This document shows, one piece after another, positions 4,401 through 44,216 of a DNA stretch of 64,000 bases. A model generated the notes under the pieces. That model saw only the letters and a program-made list of their open reading frames with translations, was not told the origin of the DNA and ran no database searches. This stretch comes from Halobacteriales archaeon QS_9_68_17. GTDB lineage: Archaea; Halobacteriota; Halobacteria; Halobacteriales; Natronoarchaeaceae. The stretch's first letter is position 1. Every line of letters begins with the position of its first letter. A program made the position numbers and the translations under genes. The stretch spans positions 1-64,000 of the forward strand of contig PXSA01000037.1 of NCBI GenBank assembly GCA_003023565.1. The letters run 5' to 3'.

Positions 4401-5426
4401 TCACTCGTCGACCGTCTGCCGCGCCCACGCCGGGTCGGTCGGTGCTTCGAGGCGCGCCGTCTCCTTGCCGGTCAGGTCGATCCCCAGCGCCGCGACGTTC
4501 TCCTCCAGTTGCGGGACCGTCTTGGGGCCGACTATCGGCGCGGTGACGACGTTCCTGTGCAGCAGCCACGCGAGGCTCACCTGCAGGGGACTCGCTCCCT
4601 TCTCCTCGGCGACGGCGCGGACCTCGTCCAGCACCGCCCACGCATCGTCGCCGTACTCCTCGGCCGGGTCGGCGTCTCGCTGTGCCAGCCGCGACCCCTC
4701 GGGCGCGGGCTCGCCGCGCTCGTACTTCCCGGTGAGGAAGCCGCCGGCCAGCGGCGACCACGGGATGACGCCGAGGCCCTGGTCCTCGGCGACGGGGAGC
4801 GCGTTCAGTTCCTCGTGGCGACGCGTCAGGCTGTACTCCGGCTGGACCGCGACGAACCGCTCGTAGTTCTCGGCGTCGCTCCGTTCGAGTGCCTTCATTA
4901 GCTTCCGGCCCGCCATCGTGCTCGCGCCGACGTAGCGGACCGTCCCCTCCTCGACGAGGTGGTCGAGCGCGGACAGCGTCTCCTCGGCCGGCGTCCCGTC
5001 GTCCCACCGGCGGACCTGGTAGAGGTCGATGTAATCGGTGCCGAGGCGGTCGAGGCTCTTCGCCGCCTGCTCCAGCACGTGTTTGCGCGACAGGCCCATC
5101 CCGTTCGGCCCGTCGCGGGTCCGGTGGTACGCCTTCGTCGCGACGACGAGTTCGTCCCGGTCGTGCTCGGCCAGCGCCTCCCCGACTATCTCCTCGCTCT
5201 CGCCCTGCGAGTAGAGGTTCGCCGTGTTGCCGGACTACGTCCGGCAGCTAACCAGAACGCGAAGCGTTCTGGTGATGTCGACGACGTTGATCCCCATCTC
5301 GACCGCGCGGTCGATCACCTCGATGCAGTGCCCGTGGTCGTCGATCCCCCACTCCTCGAAGTTCATCGTCCCCAGACAGAGCCGCGACACTTCGAGGCCC
5401 GTGTCGCCGAGATACGTGTACTCCAT
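4401..5426 (-). pseudogene. aldo/keto reductase gene interrupted by a 51-bp double-hairpin insertion
   Basis: The gene encodes an NADP-dependent aldo/keto reductase of the Tas/YajO type. The N-terminal part starts MEYTYLGDTGLEVSRLCLGT at 5426 and reaches the catalytic Asp (GINVVD). Reading then enters an insertion with an in-frame TAG stop. After the insertion the sequence resumes exactly at TANLYSQGES, which carries the catalytic Tyr, and continues uninterrupted to TVDE at 4401. Removing the 51 bp (5226-5276) restores one 324-codon frame of normal family length with no other lesion. The later part has the catalytic Lys region (VVATKAYH) and the C-terminal NADP-binding GPKTVPQLEEN. As the sequence stands, the gene makes only a fragment of about 63 residues. 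Confidence 0.85.
5226..5276 (+). mobile_element. 51-bp double-hairpin insertion (element copy A)
   Basis: The insertion lies between the Asp and Tyr motif codons of the aldo/keto reductase gene. It contains two perfect stem-loops, each with a 3-nt loop. Stem 1 has 8-bp arms (5228-5235 TGCCGGAC and 5239-5246). Stem 2 has 10-bp arms (5251-5260 ACCAGAACGC and 5264-5273). The 4-nt spacer is GCTA, the left end is GT and the right end is GAT. No clear target duplication is seen beyond an ambiguous GT. It shares its architecture with the copy at 8237-8291. It has no coding capacity, so it would need a transposase in trans. Confidence 0.75.
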
Positions 5427-5506
5427 CTCGTTCCATGCTCGCCGCGTTTCGCCGCCGGAGTGCTAAGAGCTTCGACGGCGGCAGGAGGCGGCCCGGGGTG
5501 CGCCGG

Positions 5507-6463
5507 CTACAGGTCGGCGAGCCGACGGTCCATCTCCGCGTCGACCCACGCCGCGAACGCCGCGACGGGTTCGCCGACGAACTCGGCCGTCTTCTCGACG
5601 AACCCGGAGGTCCCGAGGAACTCGACGGCACGGTAGACCGGGCGGCGCTCCGCGAACCCCGGCGGGAGGCTCCCGGCGCGGTCCCGGTACCCCTCCCGGA
5701 GCGCCGTCACGACGCGCTCGTCGCCGGGATCTCGCGATCCGTCTATCGCTCGCGCCCGGAAACAGTGGAGTTCCCGCGCGGGGTCGCCGACGTGCGCGGC
5801 CTCCCAGTCCACGAACCCGACCCCCGCTTCACCGCGGAAGCAGTTCGGCATCGCCGGGTCGCCGTGGACGAGCGCGGCCGGCGCGTCGTCGAGCAGGTCG
5901 CGGTTCGCCTCGACGGCGGCGATCACCTCGTCGTAGTGGCGGTCGAAGCGGTCCGCGGGAGCGAGCGCCCGCATCGCCTCGATCCGGTCGACGAGGACCT
6001 CGGTCCACGGCGCGGTATCGAGGGTGAGCCCCCCGGCCCCGCCGCCGGTGACGTGCCCGTGGGCGTCGAACGTCGCCGCGTGGACGCTCGCCAGCGCCCG
6101 GCCGATCCGCCGCGCCGCCTTGGCCCGTTCCTCGACGCTCCACTCGCTCCACCGTTCCGCGACGCTCTCGCCCGGAAGCGGTGCCGTGGCGAGGTACGGG
6201 ACATCGCCGCCGGCGTCGCTCGAAAGCACCGTCGGCGCGGGGACGTCGCGGTTCGCGCTGACGTAGTCGGTCACCGTTCGCTCCCGGGCGATCCGGGTGC
6301 CGTCCCCGTCGACGGCGATCTTCAGGTAGGCGGCCCCGCCGTCGGTGAAGTCGACCCGCACGGTCCGGTTGGTCGGGTTCCACGACGGCCCCGCGGGGGT
6401 CGTCTCCGCCGCCTCGCGGTCCGGAAACGCGGCGGCCAGCGCCGCGGCGATACGGTCGTCCAT
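5507..6463 (-). CDS. aminoglycoside phosphotransferase (APH/choline kinase) family protein
   Basis: This 318-residue kinase-like protein has the APH fold. The N-terminal lobe carries the ATP-binding Lys (GAAYLKIAVDGDGT). The catalytic Brenner motif is LVHGDPAMPNCF, and the following GFVDWEAAHVGDP supplies the metal-binding Asp. I start at MDDRIAAALAAAFPD (ATG 6461-6463); the longer frame upstream is not supported by composition. Homologues phosphorylate small hydroxyl substrates such as sugars, choline or aminoglycosides. In a haloarchaeon a metabolic role is likelier than drug resistance, but the substrate cannot be read from sequence. It diverges from the MazG-like gene. Confidence 0.75.
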   Translation of the reverse strand: MDDRIAAALAAAFPDREAAETTPAGPSWNPTNRTVRVDFTDGGAAYLKIAVDGDGTRIARERTVTDYVSANRDVPAPTVLSSDAGGDVPYLATAPLPGESVAERWSEWSVEERAKAARRIGRALASVHAATFDAHGHVTGGGAGGLTLDTAPWTEVLVDRIEAMRALAPADRFDRHYDEVIAAVEANRDLLDDAPAALVHGDPAMPNCFRGEAGVGFVDWEAAHVGDPARELHCFRARAIDGSRDPGDERVVTALREGYRDRAGSLPPGFAERRPVYRAVEFLGTSGFVEKTAEFVGEPVAAFAAWVDAEMDRRLADL

Positions 6464-6575
6464 ATTGGTCCCCCGTCGATGCGCGGCAAGTGCTTTGCGG
6501 CGGGTCGCCACCGACCCCCACACCATCGACCCGGCCATCGAAACGCTTTTTCCGCCGCCGCGAGCGCAACCACTT

Positions 6576-6881
6576 ATGGACGAACAGCAACGCGTCGCGG
6601 CGTTCGTCGAGGAGCACGGCCTGCACGCGGACCCCGCGTATCGAGTCCTCGACCTGGAATCGGAGGTCGGCGAGATCGCGAAGGACGCCGCCGAATCGAC
6701 CGATTACGGCGATGCGCCCGGAAACGTCGACGTGGCGAGCGACGAGGTCGGCGACGCGCTGTTCGCGCTGCTCGCCCTCGCGGACTCGCTGGAGGTCGAC
6801 GCCGCGGCGGCGCTGGACGAGGCGCTCGCGAAGTACCGCGACCGGCTGGGCGAGACCGGGTCGGCGGCGTCGGGCGAGTAA
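6576..6881 (+). CDS. MazG-like nucleotide pyrophosphohydrolase
   Basis: This 101-residue helical protein has the pattern of the all-alpha NTP pyrophosphatase superfamily. Helix 1 carries LESEVGEIAKD and helix 2 carries SDEVGDALFALLALAD, giving the ExxE...ExxD metal-binding set. Such enzymes hydrolyse (deoxy)nucleoside triphosphates to monophosphates and diphosphate, which cleans the nucleotide pool. The ATG at 6576 follows an A/T-rich patch. The next gene (glutaredoxin) is 77 bp downstream on the same strand. Confidence 0.75.
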   Translation: MDEQQRVAAFVEEHGLHADPAYRVLDLESEVGEIAKDAAESTDYGDAPGNVDVASDEVGDALFALLALADSLEVDAAAALDEALAKYRDRLGETGSAASGE

Positions 6882-6957
6882 GCGCCGCTCGCCACCGCAA
6901 CCGGCACGTGCCACCGTGTCCCGCGGCTTTTTGCCCGGTCCACCCCAACGCTCCCTC

Positions 6958-7200
6958 ATGAGCGACATCACCCTGTACGAACTCGACGGCTGCCCATACT
7001 GCGAGAAGGTCCACGAGCGCCTGCAGGCACTCGATATCGACTACGAGAGCGTCTGGGTTGACGGCCTCCACTCCGAGCGCGACGAGGTGGCCCGCGTCTC
7101 CAACCAGCGCTCGGTGCCCGTCCTCGTCGACGAGGAGTACGGCGTGACGATGGGCGAGTCCGAGCGCATCCTAGAGTTCATCGAGACGACGTACGCTTGA
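6958..7200 (+). CDS. glutaredoxin-like protein
   Basis: This 80-residue protein has a glutaredoxin fold. The redox motif CPYC sits near the N-terminus (YELDGCPYCEKV), the cis-Pro loop is RSVPVLVDEE, and the GESERILEFI region fits the C-terminal glutathione- or thiol-binding side. Haloarchaea use gamma-glutamylcysteine instead of glutathione, so it probably reduces mixed disulfides with that thiol or with proteins. It starts at the ATG 6958-6960 and is complete. It lies just downstream of the MazG-like gene. Confidence 0.85.
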   Translation: MSDITLYELDGCPYCEKVHERLQALDIDYESVWVDGLHSERDEVARVSNQRSVPVLVDEEYGVTMGESERILEFIETTYA

Positions 7201-7320
7201 GCGGACGCGGACCTGTCGGTTTCGCGTCGCCGCCGGAAGCGGTGCCCCATTGTTCTCGACCACGACGAGCTGGACCGAACGCGGCGAAGCTATTTGCTGC
7301 TCGTCGGGCAACGACGGCGC

Positions 7321-7686
7321 ATGGAGAAAGTGAACCTCGAAGACGCGTTCGCGTCGTTCGACGAGCGCTGGTCGCCCCGCCTCGCGGGCGAGCTCAACGG
7401 ACAGGCGGTCAAGCTCGCCAGAGCCGAGGGCGAGTTCGTCTGGCACGAACACGGGGACGCGGACGAACTGTTTCTCGTCGTGTCCGGCGAACTGCGGATC
7501 GAGTTCCGGGACGAGTCCGACGTGGTGCTGCGGGAGGGGGAACTCGTCGTCGTCCCTCGGGGCGTCGAACACCGCCCGGTCGCCGAGGAGGCGGCGGAGA
7601 TACTGCTGTTCGAACCGACCGACACGCGGAACACCGGGAACGTCGAGACCGAGCGGACGGAGACGGATATCGAGCGGATCGAGTGA
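7321..7686 (+). CDS. small cupin-domain protein
   Basis: This 121-residue protein consists of one cupin barrel. Motif 1 reads EFVWHEHGDADELFLVVSGE, with the two His and the Glu of the metal site. Motif 2 is VVVPRGVEHRPVAEE, which supplies the third His. All metal ligands are present, so metal binding is likely. The last 20 residues are very acidic and probably disordered. The substrate is unknown. It starts at the ATG 7321, 120 bp after the glutaredoxin gene. Confidence 0.8.
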   Translation: MEKVNLEDAFASFDERWSPRLAGELNGQAVKLARAEGEFVWHEHGDADELFLVVSGELRIEFRDESDVVLREGELVVVPRGVEHRPVAEEAAEILLFEPTDTRNTGNVETERTETDIERIE

Positions 7687-7718
7687 CGCGCTGACGCTCG
7701 CGCTCGCTCCGCCACCGC

Positions 7719-8834
7719 TCAGAACTCCGTCACGATGGGGATGCCGACCGTGTCGAAGTCGCTCATCGAGGCGATCCGCTCGGGAACCTGGTCCAGCGAC
7801 ACCGTCTCCGAGACGATCGCGCCGGGGTCGAGCGTGCCGTGCTCGACCATGCGGAAGACCTCGTCGTACGGTTCGGCGGCATGCCGAACGACCCGAGGAA
7901 GTCGATCTCCTGCATCACCATCGCGTCGGTCGGCAGGGGCACCTGTCCGCCCTCGTCGCTCGTGGTGAGGCCGATCTGGAGGTGCTGGCCGTGCGTGCCG
8001 AGGCTGTCGAGGGCGTTCCGACAGGTCTCGGCGATGCCGAGCGCGTCGACCGCGACGTTCGCGCCGCCGCCCGCGAGCGCCTGCACCTCGCTGCCGACGT
8101 TCTCCGCGCCGGACGCGTCCAGCGTCTCGTCCGCGCCGAGGTCGCTCGCGGCGTCGAGTTTCGACTGCTCGACGTCGACCGCGACCACGTTCGCGCCCAG
8201 CGCGTCGGCGATGTGGACCGCCGAGAGGCCGACGCCGTCATCAGAAATCAGAGATTTCTGATCGGCTCGCAAGAGCGAAGCTCTTGCGAACGCCGCAGCC
8301 GTGGACGGCGACCCAGTCGCCGGCGTCCAGGTCGGCGCGGTGGGCGAGGCCGTGGAAGGCGGTGGCGAACCGGCAGCCGAGGCCGGCCATGTCGACCGCG
8401 TCCACGCCGTCGGGGAGCTTCACGGCGTTGTAGTCGGCGGCCCGCACCGGGAACGCCTCCGCGAACGCGCCCGGCGCTATCTCCGTGAAGCCCAGCGGGA
8501 CGACCGTCTCGCAGACGTTCGCGTGCCCCGCACGGCAGCGGGGGCAGGACCCGTCCGAGAGCGTGAAGGGGACGGCGACGCGGTCGCCCTCGCGGAGCGT
8601 CTCCACGTCCTCGCCGACCGCCTCGACGACGCCCGCGGGCTCGTGACCGAGGACCTGGCCCGGCTGGGCCTGCGCGCCGATCCACTCCCAGTCGCCCTGC
8701 TACGCGTGCCAGTCGCTCCGGCAGATGCCGCAGGCCTCCGTCTCGACCACGACCTGGTCCGGCGCGGGCTCGGGCCGCTCTACGTCGTCTATCGCCAGCG
8801 GTTCGCCGTGCTCTCCGAGGACAGCGGCTCTCAT
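7719..8834 (-). pseudogene. zinc-dependent alcohol dehydrogenase pseudogene (nonsense, 55-bp insertion, frameshift)
   Basis: This is a medium-chain zinc alcohol dehydrogenase of about 353 codons starting MRAAVLGEHGEPLAI at 8834. Three lesions are visible. A TAG at 8700-8702 replaces the Trp expected after GICRSDWHA. A 55-bp double-hairpin element (8237-8291) splits the coenzyme-binding GCGGVG motif. A base is missing near 7880, so FGMPPN is followed by an out-of-frame tail. Between the lesions the frame is conserved, including the structural-zinc cysteine cluster CPRCRAGHANVC and the catalytic GHE region. The C-terminus can be followed to PIVTEF and the stop at 7719. Several lesions make loss of function near certain if the sequence is correct. 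Confidence 0.85.
8237..8291 (-). mobile_element. 55-bp double-hairpin insertion (element copy B)
   Basis: The insertion lies in the Rossmann glycine-motif codons of the alcohol dehydrogenase gene. On the minus strand it reads GT, then a 10-bp-arm stem (8280-8289 with 8267-8276, loop TTC), spacer GCCG, a second 10-bp-arm stem (8253-8262 with 8240-8249, loop TCT), then GAC. The second stem (ATCAGAAATC arm) matches that of copy A (ACCAGAACGC) except at three positions, each compensated on the opposite arm. A CGCC tetranucleotide occurs at both junctions but need not be a target duplication. It has no coding capacity. The assigned strand is the one giving the same hairpin order as copy A. Confidence 0.75.
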
Positions 8835-29622: not shown

Positions 29623-30705
29623 ATGCGTTTCGGAATCATCGGGTGCGGCACGATCGCCCAGATAATGCACGTCCCGTACGTCGCCGAGTTGCCCGACGCC
29701 GAGCTACACGCGCTCGTCGACCCCGCGATCGACCGCGCGGAGGCGCTCTGCGACCGGTACGGTATCCCCGACGCGTACGAGACGACGGAGAACCTCGTCG
29801 CGGACGTCGGCGACGAACTCGACGCCGCGGTCGTCCTGACGCCGCCGCACACGCACGTCGACGCGGTGGCTCGGACGGTCGAGGCGGACATCCACACGCT
29901 CGTCGAGAAGCCGCTGGCCGTCTCGCCGGCGGACGCCGACCGGATGGTCGAGATCGCCGAGGAGGGCGACGTAACCACGATGGTCGCGTACATGAAGCGC
30001 TACGACCCCGCATACGAGCGGGCGAAGGAGGAGGTCGCCGACCTCGACGAGATCGACCGGATCACGGCGTACGACGTGGACCCTGACCACTTCCGCGTCA
30101 TCGAGGAGGTGTACGACCTCGTGCCCGGCGACCTACCGGAGTCGTTCGTCGAGGAGAGCGCGGCGGCGCGCCACGAGGACGACCTCGCGGCGGTCGGGAC
30201 GAACGACGACGACCTCGCCGAGGACTACGACTGGCACCTCGAACACGTCTGTCACGACGTGAACGCCCTGCGGGGCCTGTTCGGCGACGTCGAGCGCGTC
30301 GACCACGTCGACGTGTACGCCGACGGGCGGTACGCGACCGCCCACCTCGTCTACGAGGGGGGCCACCGCTGCACGCTCGACTCCGGCCTCTCGAAGCGCA
30401 AGTGGTTCGAGGAGTTCATCCGGGTAGACACCCCTGAAAGCGCCCTTACCGTCGACTTCACGAACCCCTTCCTCAAAAACTCGCCGACCGAACTGACGGT
30501 CAAGGAGGGAATCGAGGAGCTGACCGAGACGACGTACACGCCCTCGAACGCCGAACCGTTCAAGCGCGAACTGGAGCACTTCGTCGACTGCGTCCGCGGC
30601 GAGGCTGAGGTCCGCACCACGTTCGCCGAAGCGCGCGACGACGTCTACCTCATCGCGGACCTGTTCCGCGAGTACGGCGGCGTCGAACCGATCGGAGGAC
30701 ACTGA
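29623..30705 (+). CDS. Gfo/Idh/MocA family NAD(P)-dependent oxidoreductase
   Basis: This 360-residue protein starts MRFGIIGCGTIAQIMHVPYV, the Rossmann motif of the family. The conserved HTLVEKPLAV provides the catalytic Lys of the E-K-P motif, and the substrate domain has HLEHVCHDVNALRGLFG with the usual D..H pair. It ends normally. The family oxidises sugars, inositols or sugar acids. With a polyol-type dehydrogenase, a KDG-type aldolase and an SDR nearby, it belongs to a sugar-acid or polyol degradation cluster. It is one of the few intact genes of the 25.8-31.8 kb region. Confidence 0.85.
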   Translation: MRFGIIGCGTIAQIMHVPYVAELPDAELHALVDPAIDRAEALCDRYGIPDAYETTENLVADVGDELDAAVVLTPPHTHVDAVARTVEADIHTLVEKPLAVSPADADRMVEIAEEGDVTTMVAYMKRYDPAYERAKEEVADLDEIDRITAYDVDPDHFRVIEEVYDLVPGDLPESFVEESAAARHEDDLAAVGTNDDDLAEDYDWHLEHVCHDVNALRGLFGDVERVDHVDVYADGRYATAHLVYEGGHRCTLDSGLSKRKWFEEFIRVDTPESALTVDFTNPFLKNSPTELTVKEGIEELTETTYTPSNAEPFKRELEHFVDCVRGEAEVRTTFAEARDDVYLIADLFREYGGVEPIGGH

Positions 30706-41456: not shown

Positions 41457-44216
41457 CTATAGCTCCCGCTTGAGTTCGTCGAGCAGTTCGAGCGCCTCCA
41501 GCGGCGTCGTGTCGGCGATGCTGGTCGAGCGCAGGCGCTCGGCCACCGAGAGCGGGACGTCCGGATCGCCGTCGGCGGCGACGGCGGGCGACTCGCCGGT
41601 GTCGGCGCGCGCGTCGGTCCGGTCGTCGGTCTCGCCGCCGTCGCGCCGGTCGGCGTCGCCGGTGTCGCCGGCCGCGGCGTCCGCGTCGCCGGCCTCGCGC
41701 TCGTCTAAGAGCGCCCGCGCCCGGTCGACGACGGCGTCGGGAACACCGGCCATGCTCGCCACTTCGACGCCGTACGAGGCCGTCGCCGGGCCGGGACGGA
41801 TCTCGTGGCTGAACGCGACGTCGCCGTCCGCCTCCTCCCGGTCCGCGGCGAAGTGGCGGTTGAACGCGCCGGGGAGGTCGTCGGCGACCGCCGTGAGGTC
41901 GTGGTGGTGGGTGGCGAACAGCGTCGTCGCGCCGACGCGGTCGTGGACGTACTCGGTGACGGCCCGCGCGATGGCGAACCCGTCGGTCGTGCTGGTGCCC
42001 CGTCCCACCTCGTCCAGCAGGACGAGCGAGTCCTCGGTGGCGGCCCGCAGGATCTCCGAGAGCTCGGTCATCTCGACCATGAACGTCGACTGGCCGCCGG
42101 CGATGTCGTCGCTCGCGCCGACGCGGGTGAACACGCGGTCGACGACCCGGAGTTCGGCGGCGTCGGCGGGGACGAAACTGCCGACCTGCGCGAGGACGCA
42201 GACCAGCGCGACCTGTCGCATGTACGTCGACTTCCCGCTCATGTTGGGACCGGTGATGACGGCGACGCACGACTCCCCGTCGAACGCGGCGTCGTTGGGC
42301 ACGAACGACTCCTGCGTGCGCTCGACGACGGGGTGGCGACCGCCCTCGATCCGGACGCCGTCTCCGCCCATCTCGGGGCGCGCGTAGCCATGTTTCGCCG
42401 CCACCTCCGCCAGCGAGACGAGGGCGTCGAGTTCGGCGACGGTGTCCGCGAGCCGCTGGATGCGCTCGGACTCCGCGCCGACCCGGGAGCGCACCCCGCG
42501 GAACAGGTCGTACTCCAGGTCGTCCGCGCGCTGCTCGGCGCGGATGATCTCGTCCTCTCGCTCCTTGAGCTCGGGCGTGTAGTACCGCTCGGAGTTCTTC
42601 AGCGTCTGCCGGCGGGTGTAGTCGTCCGGCACGCGGTCGAGGTTGGCGTCGGTCACCTCGATGTAGTAGCCGTGGACGGCGTTGTGCCCGACCTTCAGCG
42701 AGTCGATGCCGGTGCGCTCGCGCTCCTGCGCTTCGAGGCTGTCTATCCACTCCTTGCCCGAGCGTTCCGTCTCGCGCAGTTCGTCCAGTTCCTCGTCGTA
42801 CCCCTCCCTGACGAGGTCGCCCTCGGTGATCTCGGCGGGCGGACTCTCCCGGATTGCGTCGCCGATCAGGTCGCGGACGTCTGCGAGTTCGTCGAGGCTC
42901 TCGCGGATCGCCCGGAGCCTCTCGGTCTCGGCGTCCGCGAGCGACTCCTTCAGGTCCGGCACCACGTCCAGCGTCTCCTCGAGCGAGCGCAGGTCGCGGG
43001 CGTTCGCCCGGCCGCGGGAGACGCGGGCGATGAGCCGTTCGATGTCGTACACGTCCCGCAGGCGGTCGTGGACCGCCTCGCGCGTCCGGACGCGCTCGGT
43101 CCACTCCTCGACGGCGGCGTGGCGGTCCTCGATGCGCTCGCGGTCGATCAGCGGGCGTCGGAGCCAGTCCTTGAGCTTCCGGCTCCCGATGGCGCTGGCC
43201 GTCTCGTCGACCACGTCGACGAGCGTCGCGCCCTCCGCGCCGTGGACGCCGCGGCGCTCGAACAGTTCGAGGCTCCGGAGCGCCACCGCGTCCATGAGCA
43301 TGTACTCCCGCGGGTCGTACCGCGTCAGGTGGTTGAGGTAGTCCAGACAGCCGTCCTGCCCGCCCGGAGAACTCTCCGAGTTCTCCTGTGCCCGCAGGTC
43401 GTCGGCCGATTTGCCACCGCCGCGGGTGTACTCCGCGTAGGCGAGCAGCGCGCCGCAGGCCCTGACCTCGGCGTCGGAGGCGAGCAGGCGGTCCGGCGAC
43501 CCGAAGTACGCCGCGACCGTCTCGCGGGCGCGGTCGCTCTCGAACGCCGCCTCGTCGTAGGGCGTCACCATGCAGTCCGCGCCGAACGCCTCCGCCGCGC
43601 CGACGCGCACGCCCGGGCCGACGATGGCCTCCGGCGGCGCGAACCGGCCCACCTCGTCGGCGACCGTCGACAGCGAGTTCGTCCCGGTCACGTAGAAGTC
43701 GCCGGTGGAGACGTCGAGCAGCGCGAGGCCGTACTCGGCGTCCGCGCCCGGGCCGTCGCTCCCGCCGGCGTCGCCCGCCGACTCCGTCAGGCAGGCGACG
43801 AAGTTGTTGTCGTCCGTCTCCAGCAGTTCGTCCTCGGTGAGCGTCCCGGGCGTGACGATGCGGGTCACCGCGCGGTCGACGACGCCCGAGGCCTCCTCCG
43901 GCGCTTGCACTTGGTCGGCGACGGCGACGCGGTAGCCCGCGTCGAGGAGGGTCTCGACGTACGACTCAGCGTTGTCCATCGGGATGCCGGCCATCGGGTA
44001 CGTGCCCGTGCTGTCCTCCCGTTTCGTCAGCGTTATCTCCAGCAGCCGGGAGACGGTCTCCGCGGCCTCGCAGAAGGTCTCGTAGAAGTCCCCGACCTGA
44101 AACAGCACCAGCGAGTCGTCGTACCGCTCGCAGAGGTCGTGGTACTGACTCATCATCGGCGTCAGGTCGTCGCTTCGCTCCGCCATCTTCTCGGGCGGTC
44201 CCAGCGCCGGGTCCAT
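41457..44216 (-). CDS. mutS: DNA mismatch repair protein MutS (second MutS1 paralogue)
   Basis: This 919-residue MutS starts [20 protein letters not shown]. The mismatch-reading Phe motif lies in [20 protein letters not shown]. The ATPase has Walker [21 protein letters not shown], Walker [18 protein letters not shown] and the [11 protein letters not shown] switch. A Gln/Ser/Gly-rich stretch in the connector region ([18 protein letters not shown], near 43380) contains a perfect 9-bp-arm hairpin at the DNA level. The acidic tail before the C-terminal helix ends [14 protein letters not shown]. This paralogue resembles haloarchaeal MutS1B and diverges from the thioredoxin-like gene. Confidence 0.92.

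Follow-up and report, generated by a model that had tools for sequence, protein, structure and literature searches.

Two hairpin-pair insertions in the window

A stretch of 64,000 nucleotides from Halobacteriales archaeon QS_9_68_17 (GenBank assembly GCA_003023565.1, contig PXSA01000037.1, positions 1 to 64,000 of the forward strand; hereafter the window) contains two short insertions, each built from two unlike hairpins, which we call copy 1 and copy 2 of a family of twin-hairpin units. The genome to which the window belongs (G000) is available as a 2.88-Mb draft assembly of 42 contigs with 89% completeness. Both copies lie inside oxidoreductase genes, as a first-pass annotation made from the sequence alone had stated, and Pfam identifies the hosts as an aldo/keto reductase and a zinc-binding alcohol dehydrogenase. 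The features are as follows, with matches to the covariance model of the family that is described below.

4401..5426, minus strand: aldo/keto reductase gene (Pfam), host of copy 1; reading frame open on either side of the insertion
5226..5276, minus strand: copy 1, length 51 bp, with an edge ambiguity of up to 3 nt; model match 49.6 bits, E 1.2e-9
5251..5273, minus strand: hairpin A of copy 1, ACCAGAACGC arm, 3-nt loop
5228..5246, minus strand: hairpin B of copy 1, 8-bp stem, 3-nt loop
7700..8840 (limits approximate), minus strand: zinc-binding alcohol dehydrogenase gene (Pfam), host of copy 2; a pseudogene apart from the insertion
8237..8291, plus strand: copy 2, length 55 bp, with an edge ambiguity of 1-2 nt; model match 69.8 bits, E 5.1e-15, the best of the genome
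8240..8262, plus strand: hairpin A of copy 2, ATCAGAAATC arm, 3-nt loop
8267..8289, plus strand: hairpin B of copy 2, 10-bp stem, 3-nt loop

The two copies are on opposite strands and show a common plan when one of them is reverse-complemented. The plan that had been proposed for them (GT, a perfect stem with a 3-nt loop, a 4-nt spacer and a 10-bp AYCAGAANNC stem, again with a 3-nt loop) was found again when both intervals were re-read. Folded as single-stranded DNA, each copy forms exactly two hairpins (z -7.5 and -5.9), and none of 200 shuffles equalled this. At gathering thresholds, Rfam yields a single match in the whole window, which lies elsewhere than at the two copies.

Neither copy is present in the syntenic region of a congener (G001), which is 83.5% identical to the window over 5 kb, and all remaining indels there measure at most 13 bp. 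Alignments with orthologues again give gaps of exactly 51 bp for copy 1 and 55 bp for copy 2; the edges of the insertions can indeed be read from the host genes. The target sites are GAC|ACG for copy 1 and GCC|GCC for copy 2; the GTC at the start of the unit is therefore the element's own, and a target duplication is not needed.

The canonical strand of copy 1 is the strand of the aldo/keto reductase gene, into which it brings an in-frame TAG. Copy 2 is anti-canonical to its host, which is the common orientation, but with 55 bp it shifts the frame. Independently of this insertion, the alcohol dehydrogenase gene has a TGG to TAG change at 8700-8702 and has lost 1 nt near 7870, and is therefore a pseudogene in any case. 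As members of an unusual family, the window pair are ordinary and disruptive.

Structure of the unit

One unit consists of GTCN, hairpin A (YCAGAAxxC, a 3-nt loop and GxxTTCTGR), a spacer ending in GGC, hairpin B, and a closing AAC, AC or GT. The stem of hairpin B is variable and 8-10 bp long, and the GGC of the spacer is able to pair with the leading GTC. We aligned 23 units (alignment A1) and built covariance model R1 from them. In A1, 95.5% of cells are paired and two-sided changes number 99 against a shuffled mean of 31, figures that are inflated because the rows were picked largely for perfect hairpins.

A second set was drawn from named genomes with a stricter pattern that fixes the 3-nt loop and the GGC, and comprises 80 of at least 117 such stretches; 79 of its rows carry haloarchaeal names, and the remaining row has no closer title than Euryarchaeota archaeon. 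The dinucleotides that the pattern leaves free are complementary in 76 of the 80 units, with about five expected. A second perfect hairpin follows at most 6 nt downstream in 70 units, as against 2 of 80 in a mirror control upstream, and a best stem of at least 7 bp lies within the next 27 nt in 67 of the 80, compared with 19 of 470 control windows. Helix B was not used in the selection, and each of its ten pairs shows two-sided changes; 84.8% of cells are paired in the alignment of the 80 units, in which some rows are out of register. The idea that the structure is kept by paired changes, first derived from the two window copies, thus holds in the 80 units.

The base after GTC tracks the spacer, C being found with TG in 43 of the 80 units and A with TT or TC in 35, with two other combinations; this association agrees with a short helix of GTC and GGC flanked by a single bulged base. 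Only the GTCA form (35 of 80) allows an outer A-T pair. The loop of hairpin A occurs in 17 kinds, and the letters after this hairpin are TTGGC, TCGGC or TGGGC in 79 of the 80 units, the GGC being fixed by the pattern. When loops of 3, 4 or 5 nt were allowed, the fetched contigs gave 53, 5 and 4 twin hairpins, respectively. CGTC stands before hairpin A in 22 of the 23 rows of A1; copy 1 has CATC. Units also form arrays, with six hairpins and a head-to-head joint GGAC.GTCC at one locus (L007) and tandem units at another (L035).

Arm-to-arm copying could account for the perfect stems, the short loops and the freely varying stem letters, and the existence of tandem and head-to-head arrays would agree with this. 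A local origin by template switching or hairpin-primed copying, in place of transposition, is nevertheless improbable. Unrelated sites throughout the order show the same fixed letters GTC, CAGAA, GGC and AAC, the edges are exact, and a fixed sequence would not be imported by local events.

Abundance and distribution

The annotation had described a two-copy family and proposed a search with a covariance model for further copies. In a search of this kind, R1 matched 43 places in G000 at E <= 0.01, dozens of copies instead of two, and 85 of 98 genomes at E <= 0.001, G000 included. In the 98-genome search, at least 36 places were counted in G000, at least 47 in G018, at least 46 in G026 and at least 37 in G087; per-genome counts in this search and in that of the phylum are lower bounds, with few candidates scored per genome. 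The core pattern CAGAANNCNNNGNNTTCTG occurs at 14 places in G000 and at none when read backwards, and of 59 genomes from the order, 42 contain it (G000 included) and a few contain the backwards pattern. Twin perfect hairpins number 34 in 1.14 Mb of G000 contigs, whereas second-order Markov sequences, three in all, gave 0, 1 and 1; these contigs were picked for known core matches, arrays were counted several times, and the 34 include other hairpin families.

In a sample of the phylum (294 genomes including G000), 52 genomes match R1 at E <= 1e-4. Fifty of them belong to the same order and two weak matches lie outside (8.2e-5 and 7.2e-6), so that within this sample the family is restricted to the order apart from these two. 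Three members of the order are without an R1 match among the genomes listed, and a further 222 genomes of the sample, outside that listing, have none either. Among the matches listed, carriers include named isolate genomes, among them Halorubrum, Haloferax and Haloarcula. Viral contigs scanned with the strict pattern gave no exact match.

Three side observations were made. An array of other long hairpins, with GAAAAACGCCC and CAAAAACGGCGC stems, occurs at three places of G000 (L034 2586-2685, L066 14846-14956 and L092 16703-16844) and is apparently another family. At several Halorubrum loci (L164, L191, L209, L235 and others) the unit sits within a larger repeat, ..GGTGCTTACGTC, unit, ACGCCTGCGCC..CCCCTTTGAGTCCC.., with further hairpins. 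Near 1460-1500 of L057, and in L058, core hairpins or units stand immediately 3' of putative tRNA genes.

Insertion sites

Eleven genes were aligned with orthologues from Halostella and other relatives. The inserts measure 51 bp in PurU, ArsA, TrxB, AtpI, GpmI, PurA and the aldo/keto reductase, 54 bp in HisS and PurK, 55 bp in the alcohol dehydrogenase and 57 bp in Kae1. A listing against uninterrupted orthologues had been called for, and at least two empty ones were found at each of the 11 compared sites (one orthologue each of ArsA, PurK and TrxB was dropped by the alignment filter, and for AtpI two orthologues were entered). The insertions in Kae1 and PurK are common to G000 and G001 and are therefore older than the split of the two; none of the congeners compared has any of the other nine. 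In the G000 copies, hairpin B of the Kae1 unit has one mismatch and both hairpins of the PurK unit are broken. An assembly or sequencing artefact at palindromes might be suspected in a draft of 42 contigs. Since the Kae1 and PurK insertions are shared with the genome of another species and units occur in many named isolate genomes, its probability is close to nil.

By hand reading, the targets of the nine in-frame insertions are all C|GTC on the canonical strand, a motif that fits at 199 of 4412 codon boundaries (4.5%) of those genes, and at the compared sites the GTC is assigned to the element and the C to the target. The nine elements start with GTC or a one-base variant and end with AC, CC or GT. 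A fixed 3-bp duplication of GTC is possible at GTC sites and is ruled out at both window sites. Insertion is precise, mostly between C and GTC, and has no clear target duplication; the latter had already been stated for the window copies, and the orthologue alignments and the synteny with G001 bear it out.

Copies within genes

We examined 31 R1 places of G000, namely 30 loci and a match in mutS. Thirteen lie in frame within genes, with hosts named from Pfam and NCBIfam: PurU, Kae1, a HAN-nuclease-like protein, HisS, an ArsA/Get3-type ATPase, PurA, PurK, TrxB, AtpI, a DUF7097 protein, SufD/SufB, GpmI and, likely, MutS. One further copy (L131) reads through its host, and its assignment as in-frame is undecided. 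All 13 are antisense to the canonical strand, the orientation of copy 1 being absent among them, and nine have measured inserts of 51, 54 or 57 bp with empty orthologous sites. The view that the insertions have no coding capacity is therefore false in general. The match in mutS is in the window:

43358..43424, plus strand: likely third, older copy, in frame in mutS (41457-44216, minus strand, Pfam MutS domains); model match 33.9 bits, E 1.6e-5

About 24 residues of MutS at the position of the unit are without counterpart in the solved Thermus aquaticus MutS 1fw6, and the peptide has the same style as in the other hosts, so that 43358-43424 is likely an old in-frame unit. Solved homologues of two other hosts, HisRS (1wu7) and Kae1 (8unk), also do without the extra residues; for GpmI, the alignment with 1ejj is less clean near the unit site.

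Across many genomes, 84 units were measured by pattern. Coding signal was present on both flanks in 11 and on one side in five, and 68 have non-coding flanks. Nine of the 11 coding-flank units are in frame and two are shifted (window copy 2 and L222), and all 11 are anti-canonical; these units are not independent, since Halorubrum copies share context, L151, L199 and L229 are alike, and L182 and L206 come from one species. The frame classifier missed in-frame units that were seen by eye (L036 and L141), and for one coding unit (L157) the edge call is off. Among the 68 units with non-coding flanks, the length is not divisible by 3 in 60. Copies with coding flanks thus mostly keep the frame, antisense to the canonical strand, and are read as a polar peptide rich in serine and aspartate: the nine inserted peptides contain 25% S and 15% D, with a net charge of 0 to -4, that is, mildly acidic.

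It might be supposed that only one orientation has open frames, which is ruled out: among the 80 units, one canonical frame is open in 59 and another in 52, so that stops alone do not explain the orientation bias and another cause is required. Perhaps it lies in the character of the peptide; by eye, without counting, the canonical frames are more basic and hydrophobic. Selection presumably removes most other insertions into genes.

Some hosts deserve separate mention. The protein at L114 resembles HAN nuclease with 345 bits, below the model cut-off of 840, and an earlier RecJ-like name was dropped in favour of HAN-nuclease-like. Further serine- and acid-rich stretches, apparently more inserted peptides, are GERSSPNRSSGQSPREEGDED in TrxB (L123), ARSASDSASSAERRSAD in the SufBD protein (L127) and GADERRSSSHRG in GpmI (L132). 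The similar in-frame units L151, L199 and L229 come from three genomes and measure 57 bp (L199 54 bp by the edge call); the host of L151 is a TnpB protein.

Relation to insertion sequences and mode of movement

The copies are very probably a transposase-less mobile element, mostly 51-57 bp long, that occurs across the order Halobacteriales. A pair of hairpins in fixed order, the lack of a duplication, a target motif repeated at the end of the element and insertion into a hairpin are all expected of single-strand transposition by HUH/Y1 enzymes, as in IS608 and REP (repetitive extragenic palindrome) systems. The unit may accordingly move as single-stranded DNA, in which the two hairpins would be the recognition signals for a Y1 transposase of the HUH type, or an enzyme like it, acting in trans and cutting next to GTC/GAC at both ends; we consider such a mechanism quite possible, if short of probable.

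Several points weigh against the account of the family as a mobile element, in addition to the selection of A1 rows, the dependence among coding-flank units, the misses of the frame classifier and the open canonical frames that were described above. Movement is deduced from differences between species and not seen between strains. C|GTC is present at neither window site, and at GTC sites the element could be placed in more than one way, within a range of up to 3 nt, the placement used being the analyst's choice. No enzyme is tied to the family. A search of G000 (89% complete) for Y1_Tnp (PF01797) gave no match, and the domain was not found in several genomes rich in units either (G012, G035, G049 and G087, 95-99% complete). 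It is present in 50 of 98 genomes, and over these 98 its count does not correlate with the count of units (Spearman 0.13, p 0.20). A resident Y1_Tnp protein as mobiliser was rejected on these grounds.

Some copies lie near insertion sequence (IS) elements. G000 has nine matches to the TnpB C-terminal family. Eight tnpA loci (L353-L360) were picked for a unit or core match nearby; within the 330 bp upstream of tnpA, the unit plan is present in L353-L356 and absent in L357-L360. In G097 (L354), a unit breaks the left-end palindrome CCCGCCG..CGGCGGG of an IS605-type element, and a related element in G033 (L364) has the palindrome whole. The unit in G097 is therefore a guest in an IS605-type end. 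The first-pass annotation had likened the copies to mini-elements derived from IS200/IS605. A link to IS605-type elements does exist, but the one clean comparison (L354 with L364) speaks against a mini-IS built of such ends.

The same comparison disfavours an origin from IS ends, in which the units would be terminal-only remnants (PATEs) of IS605/IS1341-type elements with ends fused after loss of the core. Terminal-only PATEs of 52 bp do occur in Haloquadratum, according to the consulted part of PMC3119063, and some units adjoin TnpB genes or IS605-type ends. However, deletion of the core as described leaves one palindrome of 19-22 bp and not two unlike hairpins, and at least 15 of the 31 examined places in G000 are in ordinary genes (IS sequence was not scanned for at every place). 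We regard this origin as very unlikely.

Comparison with known families

The statement that no named family fits the units stands as far as a full fit is concerned; it overlooks two named kinds that resemble them. These closest kinds are the CGTC-tagged REPs with the RPEs (Rickettsia palindromic elements) and SMR-A. The family fits neither fully and is set apart by their descriptions; its behaviour within genes is that of an RPE, and within an IS end that of SMR-A.

Other systems are more distant. REPIN/RAYT systems combine a GTAG tag with a cognate Y1 transposase. Their non-autonomous hairpin pairs resemble the present units, which have no GTAG tag and no Y1_Tnp match in G000. Unlike MITEs (miniature inverted-repeat transposable elements), the units have neither terminal inverted repeats nor a target duplication, and they differ from elements mobilised by IS200/IS605 in that no match to a resident Y1 transposase exists in G000. 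The 52-bp PATEs are similar in size, palindromic, haloarchaeal and free of target duplication, in the part of PMC3119063 consulted, but they carry the IS605-type end palindromes, one of which the present unit interrupts (L354).

CGTC-tagged REPs, including RPE-4 and RPE-6 of Rickettsia, are described in the consulted sections of PMC3733652 as short palindromes with CGTC at one end, often dimers, some of them in frame, and with no known dedicated transposase. Their hosts in these sections are bacterial phyla, the word archaea appearing only in the reference list. Terminal CGTC and in-frame insertion into open reading frames are shared with the present family. The REPs and RPEs have a stem of 8-9 bp with two AT pairs first, loops of 4-5 nt and mostly a CCA tail, whereas our units have mostly 3-nt loops (as do both window copies) and TTGGC, TCGGC or TGGGC after hairpin A. 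They also have an unlike second hairpin and the GGC spacer and are found in the order Halobacteriales; the likeness is one of description.

SMR-A of Haloquadratum walsbyi comprises HqIRS42, 43 and 55, which according to the consulted part of PMC3119063 are of about 110 bp, with inverted terminal repeats and copies that are commonly more than 95% identical; HqIRS55 is mentioned once, without sequence, in the consulted part of PMC11431627. The units could be a short form of SMR-A moved by the same enzyme. SMR-A likewise has no target duplication (in our family a 3-bp GTC duplication is possible at GTC sites and absent at the window sites), inserts into near-terminal IS605-type palindromes (one clean case here, L354, with only some copies near IS) and has no transposase, as far as PMC3119063 was available. 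One unit (L193) is in a record titled Haloquadratum sp., and a head-to-head pair of units, a joint seen in L007, would be about 110 bp long. Against this, the units measure 51-57 bp at the 11 compared sites, are diverse, begin with GTC and end in AC or GT, and have no terminal repeats and no form of about 110 bp with the prominent inverted repeats described for SMR-A; in-frame insertion into genes is not mentioned for SMR-A in the part of PMC3119063 consulted. We consider the short-form explanation rather doubtful.

Implications

In-frame palindromic insertions in protein genes have been described in bacteria (Rickettsia and some hosts of CGTC and GTAG REPs; consulted part of PMC3733652). With the present family they are found in an order of archaea as well; the proteins concerned include histidyl-tRNA synthetase, Kae1, PurA and a V-type ATPase subunit. 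In the open-licence literature, the titles and abstract openings among the matches listed report neither such haloarchaeal units nor coding palindromes in archaea. The family offers a testable path for the entry of extra peptides into proteins and, with its named Halorubrum, Haloferax and Haloarcula genomes, a cultivable system for finding the mover of transposase-less, REP-like DNA.

Tentatively, we suggest that the twin-hairpin mobile DNA of Halobacteriales may be a class of its own, which lacks a transposase and depends on an enzyme, acting in trans, that is yet to be connected with it. A 51-bp branch of this class would be compatible with coding and would spread in frame through essential genes, giving polar, S- and D-rich loops of 17-19 residues. 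A review (consulted part of PMC3787623) treats acidic insertions in proteins, among them a 20-residue one in a tRNA synthetase, as a halophilic adaptation. If the suggestion is true, the “halophilic peptide insertions” of haloarchaeal enzymes would have a natural origin in this family; the nine measured peptides are only mildly acidic (0 to -4).

Elsewhere in the window, 30171-30217 on the plus strand match the guanidine-II (mini-ykkC) riboswitch with 33 bits, against an Rfam threshold of 32.

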